A stretch of 64,000 nt of DNA from a virus. The stretch spans positions 1 to 64,000 of the IMG/VR virus record IMGVR_UViG_3300045977_000067; one strand, given 5' to 3'. Below the pieces are notes generated by a model. That model made no database searches and was not told the origin of the DNA. It worked only from the letters and a program-made list of their open reading frames with translations. Of this stretch, positions 13,660-62,884 are shown one piece after another (position 1 is the stretch's first letter; each line of letters starts with the position of its first letter). The position numbers and the translations under genes were made by a program.

Positions 13660-14577
13660 CTAATCGCGTAATTCCTTCGGCGCTGGTTGCTTGGCCATAT
13701 CTTCCCAAACATGGAGTAAAAACTCCTGAAAACTTCTCCCGCCACGCAATTGCCTATTATTAAACATAATCATTAGTTCGCGTGCGGTTAACTGCTCTAT
13801 CGCGTCAGTACCGGGCTTCTTTAGTTTAGGCAACGGAATTTTTACAGCAGTACCAGGTGCGCGTCCAGCAAATGGATTATACGCATTTGGATTAAATACG
13901 CTACGCCCACCCACTTTTGGTAAGTACGCGTAATCCGCCCTTGAGCGAGTGTTAAATATATTTGCCTGTGATGTTACATCTTCCCCCTCTTTAGGATTTT
14001 GTATTATACCCTCCGCTTTAGCCGCCTGATCTTCATCGCGCTGTATATCTTCACGCTCTTGTCGCTGTATTTGATTGCGCTGGAATTCGGTTAATCCACC
14101 ACTCTCACCACGCGACCCCAGAGAACGAATTAGCGCTTCGAGATACTGCGTCGAAGGTACTTTGAATTTACGCCCTTGATCGTCTTCTAGTTCAATAGTG
14201 GCTTTACCTTGCTCAATATCTTGGCGTAATTTATTTATCTCCTCCACTAGTTTCTCTTTAGGCAAGGTGCCCAACATTTTAGCCAGTTCAACTCTTTGCC
14301 GAGATTCAGCCGCTTGAGCATTACGCAGATCAGTTTCAGCTTGTTGTGCTTCAGCAGCACCAGGCATAAGCTGGCGTAACCTCTCGGCCTGCTGCTCGTC
14401 AAGCAATCCCGCATCTTCGAGCCTATTAATCTGTGCCATATTAACGCCAGCATCAAACAAACTACCCACGCTCCTCTGGCGTAATTGTTCTAACGCTATA
14501 TCACGCGAAGCAACTTGGTTAATTTGTTCTGGTGTAAGCCCGGCTACAGATACGCTTCCTGCACCCGGGCCAGCTAA
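13660..14577 (-). CDS. Virion protein, -1 frameshift extension of the upstream gene, phage A
   Basis: Open from the slippery site, giving 305 residues read in the -1 frame after CCCTTTT. No well-placed ribosome site or ATG is seen at its beginning; the first usable GTG (14469) has AGGAG only one base away. Phage B has the same arrangement (58072-59100), with matching peptides across the overlap (PFL..PG...VAGLTPEQ versus PFL..PG...LAGLNPEQ). Mainly helical, Gln/Glu/Arg-rich (EFQRNQIQRQEREDIQRDEDQ), ending in a compact C-terminal region (LTARELMIMFNNRQ). Likely made as a fusion with 14574-15683 and part of the ejection machinery beside the giant protein (inference). Confidence 0.75.
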   Translation of the reverse strand, partial: LAGPGAGSVSVAGLTPEQINQVASRDIALEQLRQRSVGSLFDAGVNMAQINRLEDAGLLDEQQAERLRQLMPGAAEAQQAETDLRNAQAAESRQRVELAKMLGTLPKEKLVEEINKLRQDIEQGKATIELEDDQGRKFKVPSTQYLEALIRSLGSRGESGGLTEFQRNQIQRQEREDIQRDEDQAAKAEGIIQNPKEGEDVTSQANIFNTRSRADYAYLPKVGGRSVFNPNAYNPFAGRAPGTAVKIPLPKLKKPGTDAIEQLTARELMIMFNNRQLRGGRSFQEFLLHVWEDMAKQPAPKELRD

Positions 14578-17446: not shown

Positions 17447-18421
17447 CTAGCGTGTTAATAATGCGTCATACTTAGCAGATAATTCTTGTAGTGCGCCAAC
17501 AAGCCACGGTACGAGTTTGCTAAAATCAACTTGCTGCGGCTTTATACTGCCATCCTCATTGAGCGCATTAGGTTCGCCTGTAACAGCTTCTGGAACAACT
17601 TGCTGTAATTCATGCGCGGCAAATCCATGCCCTTCTTCACCGGTAGATTTCCATAAAAAGCGAATTGGATTGAGCGATGTTATACGCTCCAGGGCGCCGG
17701 TGATGGGGGTAATGGCGGTTTTGAGGCGAATATCGCTGGAGGTGCTGTACGCGGTCGCTGTGGCAGTCGTACTGATGGAGCCCACTTCCGCTCCAGAGGC
17801 ATTGGTGAAAAACAGGGCTTTGGCGTTGGTATCTGTCGATGGCTGCACCTGGATACCGTACTGCACCCCGCTGGCGGTATACGCCACCGTGATAGCCCGA
17901 GCGCTGAGTGGACTGGCCTGCATGCCAACAGTTCCGGCAAAATAATTCGGCGCGGTGCCCTCCATATAACAGTTATAACGATTTGCTCCAGCGGCAATCA
18001 ACCCACGGAAAGCGTAGCATTGATTGGATATAGGAATAGTCGGATTCAGAACTTGAAAACCACGGTATCCGCCACAAGTACTGCCACCTGTTAGGGTCGG
18101 ATCTTCTATAGTAATTCCAGCTATCGTTACATTCGATCCACTTCCTGAGTGCGGATATACGCGCTGTGCTGTCCAAGCCAAAGGATTATCTGAGTTGCCC
18201 TGGTTACTACTAAGCACCAACTGTGCCAAGCCACTAGTTGCACCGCCAAGCGCGACGCTTCCGCCCGTAATCGCCACGGCGTTGGCGTTCTGCGTGGCCA
18301 TGGTGCCAAGCTCAAGATTGGTGCGCGCATTAGCCGCAGTTGTAGCACCAGTTCCTCCGTTACTAATAGCTAGCGGAATCGTGAGACTTGTATCTGCAGG
18401 CGGATATGTTGCCACACTCAT
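17447..18421 (-). CDS. Tail fibre protein with S74 intramolecular chaperone domain (A/B junction gene)
   Basis: 324 residues from ATG 18421 (overlaps the upstream stop). The N-terminal fibre part contains NGGTGATTAANARTNL; the middle is beta-rich and GC-rich. The C-terminal 110 residues are a peptidase S74/endosialidase chaperone: SDIRLKTAITPI, NPIRFLWKSTGEEGHGFAAHELQQVVPEAV, KLVPWLVGALQEL. These domains trimerise the fibre and are released by self-cleavage. The C-terminal DNA is almost identical to 62881-63744 of phage B. This is where phage-A features stop and phage-B features start, so the gene may be a hybrid. Confidence 0.85.
   Translation of the reverse strand: MSVATYPPADTSLTIPLAISNGGTGATTAANARTNLELGTMATQNANAVAITGGSVALGGATSGLAQLVLSSNQGNSDNPLAWTAQRVYPHSGSGSNVTIAGITIEDPTLTGGSTCGGYRGFQVLNPTIPISNQCYAFRGLIAAGANRYNCYMEGTAPNYFAGTVGMQASPLSARAITVAYTASGVQYGIQVQPSTDTNAKALFFTNASGAEVGSISTTATATAYSTSSDIRLKTAITPITGALERITSLNPIRFLWKSTGEEGHGFAAHELQQVVPEAVTGEPNALNEDGSIKPQQVDFSKLVPWLVGALQELSAKYDALLTR
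17570..17678. repeat. 109-bp exact direct repeat, copy 1
   Basis: Identical to 63010-63118 (offset 45,440). Lies in the S74 chaperone part of the fibre gene; flanks stay similar from about 17480 to 17703, then diverge. Candidate crossover or mis-assembly point. Confidence 0.9.
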
Positions 18422-23283: not shown

Positions 23284-24447
23284 TTATAGCTTAGCTCCTT
23301 GAGAAGTAAATGGCCAGCGGGGGTCATCCCCGAGATTTAGTGTTTCTTCAAATGTTTCGTAATAGTCAAGTGGTGTTTGAATCTCAATCCAACGCTCGCC
23401 TAAATTACGTGATAGCAGAATAGAAACAATATTACCTTCTGAGCCATCGACCCGAAGTTTAGCTTGTGAGTACACAGCTATCTGGCCGGCGTTGTGAAGT
23501 GTCGCGCGATCAAGAGAAGTACCAAATTGAGTTATTTCATTCCACACTATTGTCGCATTCTCATAGTTATCCGTGCGATAATCCGTTAATTCTGCAAGAT
23601 TGTAGAAGAGCGTGTCAGTTGCAGCAAATATAACACTTGGCTCTTGAAGCACGCGCGCCGTGAAGCTAGTACAATCATTCGTACTGTAATAGAACTGCGA
23701 GCCCGCAGCCACAAAGAAGCGTCCAGTGTCTACGTGAAATCGAAGACCTGTAGGATTACCTACAAGAGCCGTTGTTGATTTGAGTGTGTAGGTAGGCCCT
23801 GCATAAACACGTAATTGATTAGCTGGACCATCGAGAATCGCTACGTACGTAATACTGTCAGTTGGATTTATTACTACCGCCGCGTCCGTAACGGGGGGCG
23901 TGAGTGTGAATGCTAACGAATAGTTAACACCGTAGTCAGTTGAGCGCTGCAATTGCCATGCGGTGGCAGTGCGTATAATACATGAGACGATACCGCTAGC
24001 AGTTACCGCAATCTTATTGCGACCGTGCAATTCAATAGTGCTGGGCCAATCCTTAATATTTGAGTTTACATACGTGCGCATGCGTGGATTCGAGGTGATT
24101 TCCTGGAATTGTTCACCGGAAATATCGTACGCGTAATTGTGAAAGGCTGATACATTGCCTGCAAGTGCAGCTCCACCATCCCAGTTAGAATGAAGTACGT
24201 CATCTTGGAACAGTAATGTTCCCCAGGTGTTTTGTGGTATCTGATAATTAAGCATATAGATTTCGTTAGGTCGATGCCTGCCGCATATCACGTACAATGC
24301 ACGCGTGCCATCTGTAGCAATAGTTGGCTCCCAGCAATTAGCAGCAAATGATTCTTCGAGTCGAGCAGTATTACCCCCACCCTTATGCCAATGGCCGCAA
24401 GGATCGTGAGCACGAAGTTGTGGCAGTGGAGGATAAATACTAAGCAT
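23284..24447 (-). CDS. Probable beta-propeller virion protein, phage B
   Basis: 387 residues from ATG 24447, which overlaps the end of the RCC1-like gene. Repeats with TDGTRALYVICGRH, YSTNDCTSF, LSRNLGERWIEI resemble BNR/sialidase-type propeller blades (S-x-D-x-G-x-x-W). The gene follows a clear propeller gene, so these may form a spike complex that binds glycans. No catalytic residues identified. Confidence 0.6.
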   Translation of the reverse strand: MLSIYPPLPQLRAHDPCGHWHKGGGNTARLEESFAANCWEPTIATDGTRALYVICGRHRPNEIYMLNYQIPQNTWGTLLFQDDVLHSNWDGGAALAGNVSAFHNYAYDISGEQFQEITSNPRMRTYVNSNIKDWPSTIELHGRNKIAVTASGIVSCIIRTATAWQLQRSTDYGVNYSLAFTLTPPVTDAAVVINPTDSITYVAILDGPANQLRVYAGPTYTLKSTTALVGNPTGLRFHVDTGRFFVAAGSQFYYSTNDCTSFTARVLQEPSVIFAATDTLFYNLAELTDYRTDNYENATIVWNEITQFGTSLDRATLHNAGQIAVYSQAKLRVDGSEGNIVSILLSRNLGERWIEIQTPLDYYETFEETLNLGDDPRWPFTSQGAKL

Positions 24448-25783
24448 GAGTAAGTACTCCTGGTATTGCTGGTGTTCCATCGTCCAGTGTTGCGAATGGT
24501 GAACATTCTACAGGAAAATAAGAATCAACAGTTGGAGCACTTTGAAACTCACCTATACCGAGCAATCCGTACACGTTGCTGCCCCACGTAAACATCCTTC
24601 CTTGATTATCGAGTGCCATATGACTCCAGTTGTTTATTCCTACTTTAATCCAGTTTCCATCACCCTCATTTTGAGCAGCGGTTATAACAGGAATTGTAGG
24701 ATCTCTTATATCATTGCCAGTCGAATTAGATATCAGATATGCTTGATTTCCCCAGGCCCAAATATTGCCCGCATTATCTACTGCAGCAGCACCTGTTTCA
24801 CTAACATCAATATGCACAAAGATTCTGCTAACAGGACACAGCACAAAATTAGCTGAGTCAGCTGTAGGGGGTGAGGCAAATCCTATTCTATCTCCCTGTG
24901 CGTACAACTGACCATTAGATAGCAACACTACAATACCAGATGGTGAGCACTTAATATCCGTAATAGAGACACCAGCTGGCAAGCTAAGTGGCCGCAGTGT
25001 TGGTACGGCTTCTGGATAGTGCGAATTCCACCAGTTACCCCATGTGTAAATTTGGTTACTCTCGGTCACCACGGCATTTACACTATAGTGTGCACTAATT
25101 AACTTTATTGGTCCAGGTACCCAAGTCACCTGTATTGGTGTTCTAGATACATAATCTTCTGCATATCCAGCATCACCATATGTCAGCGCATCTAGATTCT
25201 TACCCCAAATCCACAGTGTACCATCAGCTTTCAAACCAAGCATGTGATATTGACCTGCTGCAAAGTCCTTCCATACTACGTTATTTATAAGCTGCGGCAC
25301 GATTGCCTGCTCACCGCCAGGAATAAACGGATTACTTGGAGGCCTGCCTGAACCACTGTACTGCGATGCAAGTGCCCACCCACCACGCCCAAAAGTATCG
25401 TCTTCTCCCCAAGCGTATAAATATCCGTCAGCATCGAGTGCTACATAAATATACTCAAGATGGTCGCATTTCATCCAGTTATTTTTAGTACCTACCTGAT
25501 AAGGGTATACCATTGCTTGATAACCATCACTATGACGGTACGTTGCCTCATGCCTAAAGTAATTGGGACCGCTATCTATAAGCACCGGAGTCTGTCCGCC
25601 ATATTGCCAGCTAGAACTTCCCCATGTGTATAAGCGGCCACGATTGTCTATTGCCATATGCGTATCAAGACCAGCACTGATGTCTACAAAGCGAAATGGT
25701 AATTCTCCTGGTCCTGGACAGTTACCATTGTACAGCATTGTCCATCCAGACTTGCGGCCAGAAGGTGAGGTTACGGTTGTCAT
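24440..25783 (-). CDS. RCC1-repeat beta-propeller protein, phage B
   Basis: 447 residues from ATG 25783 (TTGGAGGT ribosome site). At least six RCC1-type units are visible, each with a [LIM]-x-N/D-G-x-x-[YW]-x-W-G core: RGRLYTWGSS, DGYLYAWGED, DGTLWIWGKN, NQIYTWGNW, AGNIWAWGNQ, QGRMFTWGSN. RCC1 propellers bind protein or carbohydrate partners. In the virion block it is likely a spike or receptor-contact protein; RCC1 folds are unusual in phage structural clusters. Confidence 0.8.
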   Translation of the reverse strand: MTTVTSPSGRKSGWTMLYNGNCPGPGELPFRFVDISAGLDTHMAIDNRGRLYTWGSSSWQYGGQTPVLIDSGPNYFRHEATYRHSDGYQAMVYPYQVGTKNNWMKCDHLEYIYVALDADGYLYAWGEDDTFGRGGWALASQYSGSGRPPSNPFIPGGEQAIVPQLINNVVWKDFAAGQYHMLGLKADGTLWIWGKNLDALTYGDAGYAEDYVSRTPIQVTWVPGPIKLISAHYSVNAVVTESNQIYTWGNWWNSHYPEAVPTLRPLSLPAGVSITDIKCSPSGIVVLLSNGQLYAQGDRIGFASPPTADSANFVLCPVSRIFVHIDVSETGAAAVDNAGNIWAWGNQAYLISNSTGNDIRDPTIPVITAAQNEGDGNWIKVGINNWSHMALDNQGRMFTWGSNVYGLLGIGEFQSAPTVDSYFPVECSPFATLDDGTPAIPGVLTHA

Positions 25784-26241
25784 AGAATACCTCCAACGAT
25801 CAACTGAGAGTTGATCTCGCATACACACAAGCACGGAGGTATCTTGCAATCAAGGTACTCAGCAAATATTCCTGTTTGCGGATCGCGCACAATAATGGCT
25901 GCACCATTAGAGAGAACTATATACTCACCAAAATCCGCATGACTCCACGTGTCACCTGCAACAGTATTGCACAGCAAATCGAGTACGCCGGCCTTATACT
26001 CGTATATTGCTGTGCGATCACACACGAGAGTCATGCGGCGTAGGTGAAATAGCTGCGGGAATGGCCACTGAGCATTGAGAACGCTGATAGGATCAGGCAG
26101 AGCACGAAGCGTGCTAATTACATCGTCGTAAGGAATCGCACCGCGCAACGCCGCAAGGAATTGTGAATTGCGTGGATTACGCTCGTTAGGGCGAAGTCCT
26201 TTCGCCAGGCCTTCTTTGTAGGTTACTGTATATTCACGCAT
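25780..26241 (-). CDS. Virion-region protein, phage B
   Basis: 153 residues, ATG 26241. Beta-rich; RRMTLVCDRTAIYEYKAG and EYIVLSNGAAIIVRDPQTG suggest a partial propeller or jelly-roll. Four-base overlap with the RCC1 gene start. Not recognised; probably a tail or spike component co-translated with the propeller genes. Confidence 0.65.
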   Translation of the reverse strand: MREYTVTYKEGLAKGLRPNERNPRNSQFLAALRGAIPYDDVISTLRALPDPISVLNAQWPFPQLFHLRRMTLVCDRTAIYEYKAGVLDLLCNTVAGDTWSHADFGEYIVLSNGAAIIVRDPQTGIFAEYLDCKIPPCLCVCEINSQLIVGGIL

Positions 26242-27722: not shown

Positions 27723-29015
27723 TTACGGCTTATCTTTACCTACATCATTCAGCAAACCAAACTTCGTTGGGTGATGATACTCAAGACCGCACTCAGTTAG
27801 CCACTCTTCTTTAGTACCGTCGAGCCGCTCGTGCGATGGTGATACTTTAGTCGTGTCCATACTCATGAATGTAGTATCATCAATGTAGCGGTACTTGAGC
27901 ATTTGTGGCTCTAGTATAACCAGTAGATTACGCGTAGTTGCATCGTAACTGAACAATGGGTGCGTCATTAGGTTAAGTGTACCAAATGGTGTAATCCATT
28001 GCGTAACCTTGAGACCGTATGAAGTAGCCGTGGGTGTGAGGTTAATCTGACCAGCTGCTTTTGCAATGCGATTAATGCCAAGCAACGCACCACTACCAGC
28101 AAAGGCCATTTTATCACTTGAGCCATAACGGAAGATTACTTCAAGTGATCTATCTAGCCATTCTTCACCACCTTCAAGCCAAGTAGTACTCGCCGGAACA
28201 CTTGCATCGGTGGTGTATGTAAATGAGTTGCTAGGTGCACCTGTTTTGATTGCCTGAATGACACCCATAGTAGTGCGTTCAGGCTTGCCGTTAGTGCCAA
28301 CGTTCTCCGTGCGAATGCCCCAGAAGAATGCTTTCTCCATCTCAATAGAGTGAAGTTCGAGAGATTCACGTTTTGCTTCTTTGTACGCGTCCTCGGTACG
28401 CAGCGTAGTTTTACGCGCGGTACGAGTAATGTCCAAAGGAGTACGGAAAATCTGAGTGTAGTTGAACCACTTCACAGGATCATAGGCAACAGCATTAGGA
28501 ATTGGCGCACCTTCAGAGTTAATGTTACCGATAATAAGAATGGTATCTGCAGTAGACAGGTTTGTTGCTCCACCATTATCGTCAGCCTCTAAGAGTTTAA
28601 CATCTATCTTAGAATCAGCACCGGCGAGAGTTACGCCAACTACTTTAGCGTTTACGTCTACGTTAAGGTTGGTAGATACCCGCAATAGAACCTGATGGCC
28701 GACACGAAATTCAGTGGCAAGCGCCTGAGCTACCTTCACGTAGAGTGTGACGCCAGCTGCAGTACCGCCGGCAGCGAGTGCAGCTGTCATTCCTGAGTCA
28801 GTATAAATGTCAGTGATAGTTCCGCCTTGAGTCGCGAGGTTCTTTGTCCACCACGCAAATTCAGGGTCAGTAACTACTTCTTCTCCCATCTTACTCAATA
28901 AGCCCGTAAGTGGCGCCATTCCGTTCGGGTAAAGGTAAAGTATTCCTTGCCGCCAGTTCTTTGGACGCTCGTCAGTTGCCCAGTCACCAGTACCACGCAT
29001 TCCCATGAAAGCCAT
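27723..29015 (-). CDS. Major capsid protein, phage B
   Basis: 430 residues, ATG 29015. N-terminal MGMRGTGDWATDERPKNWRQGILYLYPNGMAPLTGLLSKM, a beta-rich inserted domain (about 85-150; VGHQVLLRVS...), then FNYTQIFRTPLDITRTARKT and a long helix-beta region ending in TKEEWLTECGLEYHHPTKFG. This matches HK97-fold capsids of the SU10/DUF5309-like type. It lies downstream of scaffold and portal, in the usual order. Single copy in the window; phage A's capsid is not present. Confidence 0.85.
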   Translation of the reverse strand: MAFMGMRGTGDWATDERPKNWRQGILYLYPNGMAPLTGLLSKMGEEVVTDPEFAWWTKNLATQGGTITDIYTDSGMTAALAAGGTAAGVTLYVKVAQALATEFRVGHQVLLRVSTNLNVDVNAKVVGVTLAGADSKIDVKLLEADDNGGATNLSTADTILIIGNINSEGAPIPNAVAYDPVKWFNYTQIFRTPLDITRTARKTTLRTEDAYKEAKRESLELHSIEMEKAFFWGIRTENVGTNGKPERTTMGVIQAIKTGAPSNSFTYTTDASVPASTTWLEGGEEWLDRSLEVIFRYGSSDKMAFAGSGALLGINRIAKAAGQINLTPTATSYGLKVTQWITPFGTLNLMTHPLFSYDATTRNLLVILEPQMLKYRYIDDTTFMSMDTTKVSPSHERLDGTKEEWLTECGLEYHHPTKFGLLNDVGKDKP

Positions 29016-58071: not shown

Positions 58072-59100
58072 TTACTCTTTGGGCCTGAGTTTCCAGGGTA
58101 TCGGCTGCTTTAAGCTTGGATAAAATACTTGCTCAAGGTATTGTTGCACGTTCATTGCGCCACTAGGGTAATTCTGAGCTGCGTCATAAACCTCTTGGGC
58201 CGTATAGCGATGACCATCTACAGTAGGCAAATCTATCTTCTTCATTCGAGTACCTGAATAGATGCGGCCAGGATTATCCTCAAAGATATACACGTACGGC
58301 TGTTTGCTTGTCGCATGAAACAGCTCAGCTTCAGGTGCTAATTCACTCTCATCGTACGAGTTCTGTAGTGCATAGCCACCAGGTCTCTTCGAGCGTAGAT
58401 TCTGTTCTGCATCTGTTGCTACTTTCATCTCAGTGCGAGCATCCGTGCGCGCTTTAGCTATTTTCTCTGCACGCTCTTTCTCGAGCTGCATCATCTTCTG
58501 TATATTCTCGTTACGCTCTTGAGCAAGTGTCATTCCTTTGGCTGAGAACTCCTGACCACCGATCTTCAGCTTTACGTATTCATCATTCTGTTTATCTAGC
58601 AGTGCAGCCTCTCTCGGATACAGTTGACGGATGCGCTCAGCATTGGCATTGCTGGCATTAACAGCTGCCATACTTTGCTCAATATTAGCTCGTATGTTCT
58701 GCTTCTCTAAACCGAGCAGCTCAGTAACGCGGTTTGATTGTGCTTGATACAGGCCTGTCTGTGCACGCTCCTGTGCAACGCGTTCTGGCAACAGTGTTTC
58801 GGTACTGATTCGCTGAGCACGACTCGCACCAGCTGCTTCACGTGACTGGTCAATATCCGCAAGCATCTTAGCGGCAATGTGAGGCTCTTCTGCACGTAAC
58901 CGTGCTGCCTGCGCTTTATTCAAATCACCTGAAGTTTCACGGTACGCAATCTCACTTTGTACATTACGTGCCTGTATAATGTCCTGCACGCTGCGTAGTC
59001 GCAGTGCTTCTCGTTCTGTGTCGAGTCGGCCCATAGCTGCAACCTGTTCTGGATTAAGCCCCGCAAGACTTCCACTTTCAAATCCTCCGGGGCTTAGTAG
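58072..59100 (-). CDS. Virion protein, -1 frameshift extension of the upstream gene, phage B
   Basis: 342 residues read in the -1 frame after CCCTTTC. An internal ATG (59034) exists but has no ribosome site. Long helical, Arg/Glu/Gln-rich (REALRLRSVQDIIQARNVQS), with the C-terminal third SELAPEAELFHATSK and HRYTAQEVYDAAQNYPSG. Homologue in phage A at 13660-14577. Probably a fusion partner of 59094-59654, giving about 527 residues in total. Confidence 0.75.
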   Translation of the reverse strand, partial: LLSPGGFESGSLAGLNPEQVAAMGRLDTEREALRLRSVQDIIQARNVQSEIAYRETSGDLNKAQAARLRAEEPHIAAKMLADIDQSREAAGASRAQRISTETLLPERVAQERAQTGLYQAQSNRVTELLGLEKQNIRANIEQSMAAVNASNANAERIRQLYPREAALLDKQNDEYVKLKIGGQEFSAKGMTLAQERNENIQKMMQLEKERAEKIAKARTDARTEMKVATDAEQNLRSKRPGGYALQNSYDESELAPEAELFHATSKQPYVYIFEDNPGRIYSGTRMKKIDLPTVDGHRYTAQEVYDAAQNYPSGAMNVQQYLEQVFYPSLKQPIPWKLRPKE

Positions 59101-59106
59101 AAAGGG
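59056..59106 (-). promoter_or_regulatory. Programmed -1 frameshift signal, phage B
   Basis: Minus strand C-CCT-TTC (59106-59100), then TAC TAA. After 4 bases a perfect 8-bp stem AAGCCCCG (59095-59088 read on minus) / CGGGGCTT (59063-59056) closes a 24-base loop. Phase and spacing match a classic -1 site. Confidence 0.85.
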
Positions 59107-61492: not shown

Positions 61493-62884
61493 TTAGTTTA
61501 CCTTACTGCAGATCATAGTAATTACACCTTTAGCGCCTAATTCGCCTGCACAATTAAGAATTAAATCTCCAGATGGTGGCGGTTCTGGTAAAGGTGTAGT
61601 ACCAAAAACATATGCGCCTAAATCAGGTGGCTGCGTGTAGGGCTGTCCTTGTACGTCACTTTCTACAGCAACAGTTATTCCAGCTCGTATCGCTGGCGAA
61701 TTTGATTTAAGTGTCAAATCTCCACTTGCAGAGTCGGTGTATATATTCTCTACAGGTGCAATTAGCGTAATACCAGTGTTACCACTTTTATCTGACATGT
61801 TGTGGTGATTTTTATCCGGGTTTGGTGATACGCCTGCAGAATTGCCCAGCGATAAATAAGCATTTTTTTGTTCAGTAATCAGATTATTTACTACTGTAAA
61901 TCCACTGCCATCTCCTGAAGTTGTCCAGATACCAGTAGGATCATCGTTCCATCCAGCTTCTTTCCATCCGTGAATTGTATTGTTAGCAATTAATCCGGAA
62001 CCTGATAGTGTAATTCCTGAACCGTTGTGTTCAAGTAGGTTTGATGCTACTGTACAATCTGATCCTGCACAGCGGATACCAACACTGCTATTGTGACGTA
62101 CTATATTACGCTCTATCTTTATTCGCGAAATTCCTCCGCCCTCACACGATACGTGAATGCCATAGTAAGAGCAATATTCTACGCGATTATCACTAATAAT
62201 TTGATCCGTACCGCACACGTACATTCCGTGCGGACAGCCACTTGGCGTAGGCTTATTGTCGCTATGGGGGCATTCTTTAAGTCCAGTGTGGTGAATATAG
62301 TTATGCGTAATAGTTAAGTATTTACTAGTACTGCCGCCCTTAATTTGACCATCGGCTAATTCATTTCGCGTTATAGTAACGTGCTGTGCATTGCCGATGT
62401 ATACACCACCAACAGAACCAGCATTACTATGACGTACTATTCTCAAACCCTCGACGTGAATAAACCTCGCGTAATCTAGTAACGTAATTGCCGAACCACC
62501 ACCAGGAAATTGTTTACCTGCTGGTGAAAGAACAGCATTTCCAGCCGCAATTAACTTAGTAGGCTGATCCGGATCTATACCATTAACTATTGGATAACAG
62601 GGTTGTTGCACAGCAGAATCACCACTAGAGCAGGCACGGCTATTAGATTGCTGCGAGATTAGCAATTCGTTGTACGTACCCGGGCCGATAATTAGCGTAT
62701 CTCCAGAAGATAAGCATTGTAAGCCAGCATTAATTGAAGCACGTGATGTAGCTGGATTTTTCGCTTGCTCGCATGTATGACTATCATTACCTCGTGGTTT
62801 ACGTGTTGCCTGTTGACTTACGTAATACGTTTCGTAGGCATATACTTCTGCTGATAAAAACAGTAGTAGTATAATGCTTATCAT
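61493..62884 (-). CDS. Secreted parallel beta-helix protein (pectate-lyase/NosD-like), phage B
   Basis: 463 residues, ATG 62884. The first 16 residues (ISIILLLFLSAEVYA) are a good signal peptide. Many right-handed beta-helix rungs follow (HNYIHHTG, ISDNRVEYCSYYGIHVSC, RNIVRHNSSVGIRC, VASNLLEHNGSGI, IANNTIHGW), about 16 Cys in total, and a late P-rich linker before a short C-terminal Cys pair. Cys content and signal peptide fit export. Possibly a polysaccharide-modifying or host-surface protein. Absent in phage A: a moron-like insertion between lysis and fibre genes. Confidence 0.75.
   Translation of the reverse strand: MISIILLLFLSAEVYAYETYYVSQQATRKPRGNDSHTCEQAKNPATSRASINAGLQCLSSGDTLIIGPGTYNELLISQQSNSRACSSGDSAVQQPCYPIVNGIDPDQPTKLIAAGNAVLSPAGKQFPGGGSAITLLDYARFIHVEGLRIVRHSNAGSVGGVYIGNAQHVTITRNELADGQIKGGSTSKYLTITHNYIHHTGLKECPHSDNKPTPSGCPHGMYVCGTDQIISDNRVEYCSYYGIHVSCEGGGISRIKIERNIVRHNSSVGIRCAGSDCTVASNLLEHNGSGITLSGSGLIANNTIHGWKEAGWNDDPTGIWTTSGDGSGFTVVNNLITEQKNAYLSLGNSAGVSPNPDKNHHNMSDKSGNTGITLIAPVENIYTDSASGDLTLKSNSPAIRAGITVAVESDVQGQPYTQPPDLGAYVFGTTPLPEPPPSGDLILNCAGELGAKGVITMICSKVN

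Follow-up and report, generated by a model that had tools for sequence, protein, structure and literature searches.

A predicted programmed −1 ribosomal frameshift joins two late genes of unfamiliar function in podovirus-like phages

How are two overlapping open reading frames of an uncultivated phage expressed when the second lies in the −1 frame relative to the first and opens at a possible slippery site? The pair in question, ORF1 and ORF2, occurs twice in a window of 64,000 nucleotides (the whole stretch of DNA analyzed here), which derives from an IMG/VR record of 64,399 bases and contains sequence from two related phages. Phage B makes up nearly all of ~17.7–64 kb, and phage A is a partial genome confined to the first ~17.7 kb; because an independent 46.8-kb contig (3300045884_000072) matches window positions 18.2–64 kb at 99.99–100% identity, we treat B as an independently confirmed genome and A, which is partial, as a fragment. 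The two meet in a tail-fibre Peptidase_S74 chaperone region (window 17684–18314; record end ~64141–64399), where they share 98.7% identity; the A–B junction reflects either chimeric assembly or recombination.

Joining of two proteins by a −1 frameshift is well known in phages. We conclude that a programmed −1 ribosomal frameshift very probably joins ORF1 and ORF2 (Table 1). The original prediction argued for function from the conservation of slippery site, stem, and frame despite sequence divergence, and evidence from eight loci supports that argument.

Table 1. Positions of the overlapping pair, its recoding elements, and neighbouring genes in the window
Feature	Position	Strand	Description
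ORF1, phage B	59094..59654	−	186 aa, ...DIAPFY*; zero frame, short product; homologues at 8 other loci
Slippery heptamer C_CCU_UUC, phage B	59100..59106	−	In ORF1 frame
ORF1 stop TAA, phage B	59094..59096	−	One codon past heptamer, at hairpin base
ORF2, phage B	58072..59106	−	−1 frame from CCC TTT; 344 aa; fusion 527 aa
Stimulatory hairpin (predicted), phage B	59055..59096	−	Lower stem 59096–59088/59063–59055; loop 59079–59072
Inner parts of phage B hairpin	1x1 mismatch 59087/59064; upper stem 59086–59080/59071–59065	−	
ORF1, phage A	14574..15683	−	369 aa, ...VIPF*
Slippery heptamer C_CCU_UUU, phage A	14577..14583	−	Stop TAG 14574–14576 immediately after
ORF2, phage A	13660..14583	−	−1 frame; fusion 674 aa
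Hairpin (predicted), phage A	14537..14571	−	Lower stem GGCCCGG/CCGGGCU, mismatch, 6-bp upper stem
Giant gene, phage B	52285..57822	−	1845 aa, downstream of pair; phrog_9880, internal-virion-like
Giant gene, phage A	8149..13335	−	1728 aa, same position
gp7-like gene, phage B	20217..21089	−	Weak similarity to ejection protein gp7 of P22 (E 0.0033, under the Pfam cut-off)

Slippery site and reading frame at eight loci

In phage B, the 3′ end of ORF1 reads ...GCC CCT TTC TAC TAA, and the −1 frame is open through CCC TTT CTA CTA AGC CCC GGA; the heptamer thus lies in phase at 59106–59100 on the minus strand, just as had been predicted. An in-frame X_XXU_UUY stands just ahead of the ORF1 stop in eight non-identical loci, seven times as CCCTTT[C/T] and once as AAATTTT; these are B, A, L004, L010, L012, L014, L087, and L096, of which B, L004, and L010 are close, leaving few independent lineages. 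CCCTTTY alone occurs across the window about as often as expected by chance (10 instances against 10.4). In frame, X_XXT_TTY is found in all eight ORF1/ORF2 overlaps, which are 5–34 codons long, and in none of ~12,100 control codons taken from the giant gene and genes nearby. Both C_CC.U_UU.Y and the AAATTTT site fall within the class H_HH.U_UU.Y, which is among the most efficient −1 motifs in Escherichia coli (PMC4066793).

The relatives were reached by several routes. Protein and profile scans yielded L004, L010, L012, and L014, in each of which CCCTTT[C/T] lies in phase, one or two codons before a stop, and is accompanied by a hairpin; a motif scan of the whole viral collection returned only loci already known and a second copy of B. 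Terminase was used to gather 39 loci, and an ORF2 profile run on 25 of their records identified L087, whose terminase is 49% identical to the query, and L088. The very distant L096 was found in another record by a covariance model of site plus hairpin (E=6.6e-5), and its heptamer, AAATTTT at 1824–1830, is altered in sequence while keeping the X_XXU_UUY rule. Alignment of relatives, proposed at the outset as a check for CCCTTTn and a covarying stem, thus bears out the site in eight loci, two of which (L087, by the ORF2 profile, and L096, by the site and hairpin model) were found without requiring the motif. A further weak match to the RNA model (E=0.18), within a different gene of G030, was taken as chance. 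The giant gene had no match in 84,980 prokaryote genomes; genes in the same slot of Vibrio phage 1.021 and L026 are unrelated by profile comparison, and the corresponding region of Microcystis phage Mel-JY34 has no X_XXY_YYZ heptamer.

Sequence beyond the heptamer evolves as −1-frame coding sequence. The overlap peptides of A and B match in this frame, as the original prediction held, and over the 66 nt past the heptamer all 7 base changes between B and L004 are synonymous in the −1 frame (7 synonymous, 0 other), compared with 1 silent and 5 other in frame 0 and 0 and 6 in frame +1. Identical residues are encoded by identical codons at a frequency of 0.80 in the first 20 ORF2 codons, versus 0.43–0.67 elsewhere.

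The adjacent hairpin

A perfect 8-bp stem had been predicted four bases past the phage B heptamer. Its arms, AAGCCCCG (59095–59088) and CGGGGCTT (59063–59056), and the 4-base spacer TACT were recovered, but the structure is larger than that: at minimum energy, a lower stem of 9 bp and an upper stem of 7 bp, separated by a 1x1 mismatch, are capped by a loop of 8 nt. We compared hairpin stability with that of synonymous recodings of the same peptides drawn from each phage's codon usage. The phage B hairpin, at −25.9 kcal/mol, stands apart from its recodings (−13.3 ± 2.9 kcal/mol), none of 2000 being equally stable; the hairpins of B, A, L004, L010, L012, and L096 are unusually stable by this measure (P <0.0005 to 0.03), and those of L014 (P 0.08–0.10) and L087 (P 0.18) do not differ significantly from what the peptide imposes. 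Combined across six lineages by Fisher's method, the energies give P ~4e-7.

A hairpin is present in 8/8 loci, with its base 3–5 nt past the heptamer; in L087, for example, CCCTTTC is followed by an 11-bp stem. In the lower stem, 98% of cells across the eight sequences are paired, and the covariation score of 0.367 exceeds that of shuffled alignments (0.133; 0/500 as high) and lies well above the scores of slid registers. One stem pair displays all four Watson–Crick types, C-G three times (B, L004, L010), A-U twice (L012, L014), U-A twice (L087, L096), and G-C once (A). It links the third position of a Pro codon with that of an Ala codon (in L014, an Arg codon), and since both positions are fourfold degenerate, their matching is not explained by protein constraint. 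The upper stems differ in sequence between loci, and their shape recurs.

The lower stem by itself is partly forced by the Ser-Pro-Gly...Ala-Gly-Leu peptide and is modestly unlikely under synonymous recoding (P = 0.04–0.15 per member); because this stem-only comparison is weak, we do not take the stem alone as proof. The weight of the case comes from the full hairpin, its covariation, and the frame evidence rather than from the lower stem. Two further elements were considered and rejected: a pseudoknot, in which loop GGAUU of B and L010 would bind AAUCC immediately past the 3′ side of the stem, is broken in L004 and competes with the conserved upper stem, and a general upstream Shine-Dalgarno stimulator is at odds with the distribution of AAGGAG ahead of the site (only in L012 and L014) and AGGAGG (L087). 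The site has no match among known RNA families in Rfam.

Translation of the overlap and its alternatives

We posit that, when a ribosome on ORF1 arrives at C_CCU_UUC, tRNA-Pro occupies its P site and tRNA-Phe its A site, and the hairpin that starts 3–5 bases downstream would make it pause. Both tRNAs could then re-pair one base back, on CCC UUU, allowing a fraction of ribosomes to continue into ORF2 while the remainder would terminate one codon later. The phage B products would be ORF1 (186 aa) and an ORF1–ORF2 fusion (527 aa), the latter built from ORF1 as a helical domain, a linker rich in Pro, Ala, and Thr, and ORF2, which is long-helical and ends in a small domain at the C terminus. The heptamer, the hairpin, the −1 reading, and the unsplit version of the fusion in a relative are all read from sequence; slippage in cells, its rate, and a role in the virion are inferred.

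In that relative, G026, the same slot lies between a gp7/gp14-like gene and the beginning of a giant gene and is filled by a single unbroken ORF of 409 aa, whose product aligns end to end, through the junction, with the frameshift product predicted for L096 (32% identity, E=1e-48). The L096 site (1824–1830, frameshift) and the G026/L100 ORF (969–2198, in-frame fusion) represent the same protein in phages with closely related terminases; in the terminase tree G026 is, with full support, the sister of the L096 phage, in a clade that also holds L087. This placement suggests that the frameshift was replaced by a fusion in G026, unless recombination misleads the terminase tree. In Desulfofustis phage LS06-2018-MD01 the slot is occupied by one ORF of 487 aa, probably likewise an in-frame fusion, with an ORF1-like N-terminus (hhalign E 1e-4), and more distant phages also have a single ORF there. 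L088 (G014), by contrast with the fused forms, has two separate ORFs, a GGGAGGG Shine-Dalgarno sequence, and no heptamer. Relatives with an in-frame fusion, or with an intact separate start and no slippery site, had been named in advance as cases that would speak against frameshifting; both exist, yet only among the more distant relatives. The frameshift is thus not universal, and by sequence it appears to be one of three solutions (frameshift, fused, split) for this protein. The in-frame fusion in a relative also shows that the predicted fusion protein is real, which supports the frameshift reading, and since G026 appears to make the fusion only, the long form may be the essential one.

Could the two ORFs instead yield two separate proteins, by termination at the end of ORF1 and restart within ORF2? 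The ORF1 stop and ORF2 overlap closely, an ATG overlaps the stop in L012 (TTATGAG) and occurs 24 codons past the heptamer in B and L004, and G014 does use separate ORFs with a Shine-Dalgarno sequence. Past the slip, however, the first in-frame ATG, GTG, or TTG comes only after 39 codons in L010 and 79 codons in L014, within conserved peptide, and phage A has none within 38 codons, all of which speaks against ORF2 being initiated independently. Between the heptamer and those starts, the peptide is conserved and its codons change silently; reinitiation would leave the heptamer and the covarying hairpin unexplained, and one relative carries the fusion as a single ORF. We consider reinitiation very unlikely.

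Slippage of the polymerase on the T-run, generating mRNAs that join both frames, would fit the five consecutive T that follow CCC in A, L004, and L014. The run is only 3 T in B, L010, L012, and L087 and 4 T in L096, however, which is short for polymerase slippage, and tRNA slippage accounts better for the XXXYYY rule and for the conservation of an RNA hairpin downstream, making a transcriptional origin very improbable. A recent frameshift mutation or assembly error that split one gene is the least credible explanation, with next to no chance of being correct: although relatives with one uninterrupted ORF exist, seven further independent records, outside the window, share this break at the same position, B being confirmed at 100% in one, and such recurrence already contradicts an accident. 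Moreover, ORF2 shows no decay, and the heptamer is retained across loci as its flanks diverge. We therefore return to ribosomal −1 frameshifting.

The proposed site has familiar counterparts. In E. coli dnaX and the IS3 family, an X_XXY_YYZ heptamer is likewise followed, after a short spacer, by an adjacent RNA structure, whereas the conserved upstream Shine-Dalgarno-like stimulator of those systems is lacking here. In the lambda G/GT tail assembly chaperone, two overlapping late genes are likewise joined by a −1 slip just ahead of the first ORF's stop; here, in contrast, the late region is podovirus-like and the next gene is an internal-virion-like giant (phrog_9880), not a tape measure, with no tail-tube/tape-measure pair recognized and no PHROG match to chaperones. 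Gene 10A/10B of the podoviruses T7 and T3 also yields short and C-terminally extended forms of a virion protein by −1 frameshifting close to the gene's end, and the T7 site, G_GUU_UUC, is related to the heptamer described here. Gene 10A/10B, however, extends the major capsid protein, which ORF1 is not (the major head protein candidate of phage B lies at 27723–29015; phrog_1328, E=2.6e-34); the extension here, at >300 aa, is much longer than that of T7, and a hairpin lies adjacent here, as opposed to the distant 3′ element involved in T7 (PMC5009743).

Genomic context and probable role

ORF1 and ORF2 have no family match in PHROGs or Pfam. ORF2 is predicted to fold into long helices and, at the C terminus, a small alpha/beta domain, and the prediction for ORF1 is of low confidence; neither showed a sequence or fold match to gp15 or gp20, nor was a PDB fold match found with a moderate model (pLDDT 69). 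Genes with Gly/Ala-rich ends, like the gp7-like gene of phage B, directly precede ORF1 in L012, L014, L087, and L096 and the fused ORF in G026; in phage B the gp7-like gene and the pair are not adjacent. The giant gene comes next after the pair, except in L014, where a beta-helix-like gene lies between. This order (small Gly/Ala-rich, helical, giant) resembles T7 gp14-gp15-gp16 and P22 gp7-gp20-gp16, an analogy by position only. With a gp7-like gene before it and a giant gene after it, the pair, judged from position alone, probably encodes a component of the ejection complex (internal virion) in a short and a long form. By analogy, we lean slightly toward the view that frameshifting sets the short/long ratio of an ejection-complex protein in uncultivated podovirus-like phages, whose relatives carry it fused (G026) or separate (G014).

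Searches of the open-access literature gave no report of frameshifting in podovirus internal or ejection protein genes beyond capsid frameshifts (PMC7881722), and recoding of ejection genes may, as far as that literature shows, be a use not previously described. Phage frameshifts are usually annotated in tail-chaperone and capsid genes, and the locus adds a well-supported site beyond these, in a gene slot that is otherwise unannotated. Comparing the frameshift, fused, and split versions of one protein is a natural way to ask whether its short form has a separate function, and programs for gene calling that are blind to recoding will go on mis-annotating this protein.

Other late genes bear their own resemblances. 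Right-handed beta-helix genes occur in the late region of the window (61493–62884) and in L014 (from 7539, between ORF2 and the giant gene). Residues ~650–710 of the phage B giant protein form a winged-helix-like, TrmB/MarR-like stretch, just below the Pfam cut-off, that is not seen in the phage A giant, and a late gene of phage B at 24440–25849 resembles PHROG families of the RCC1 type (regulator of chromosome condensation).
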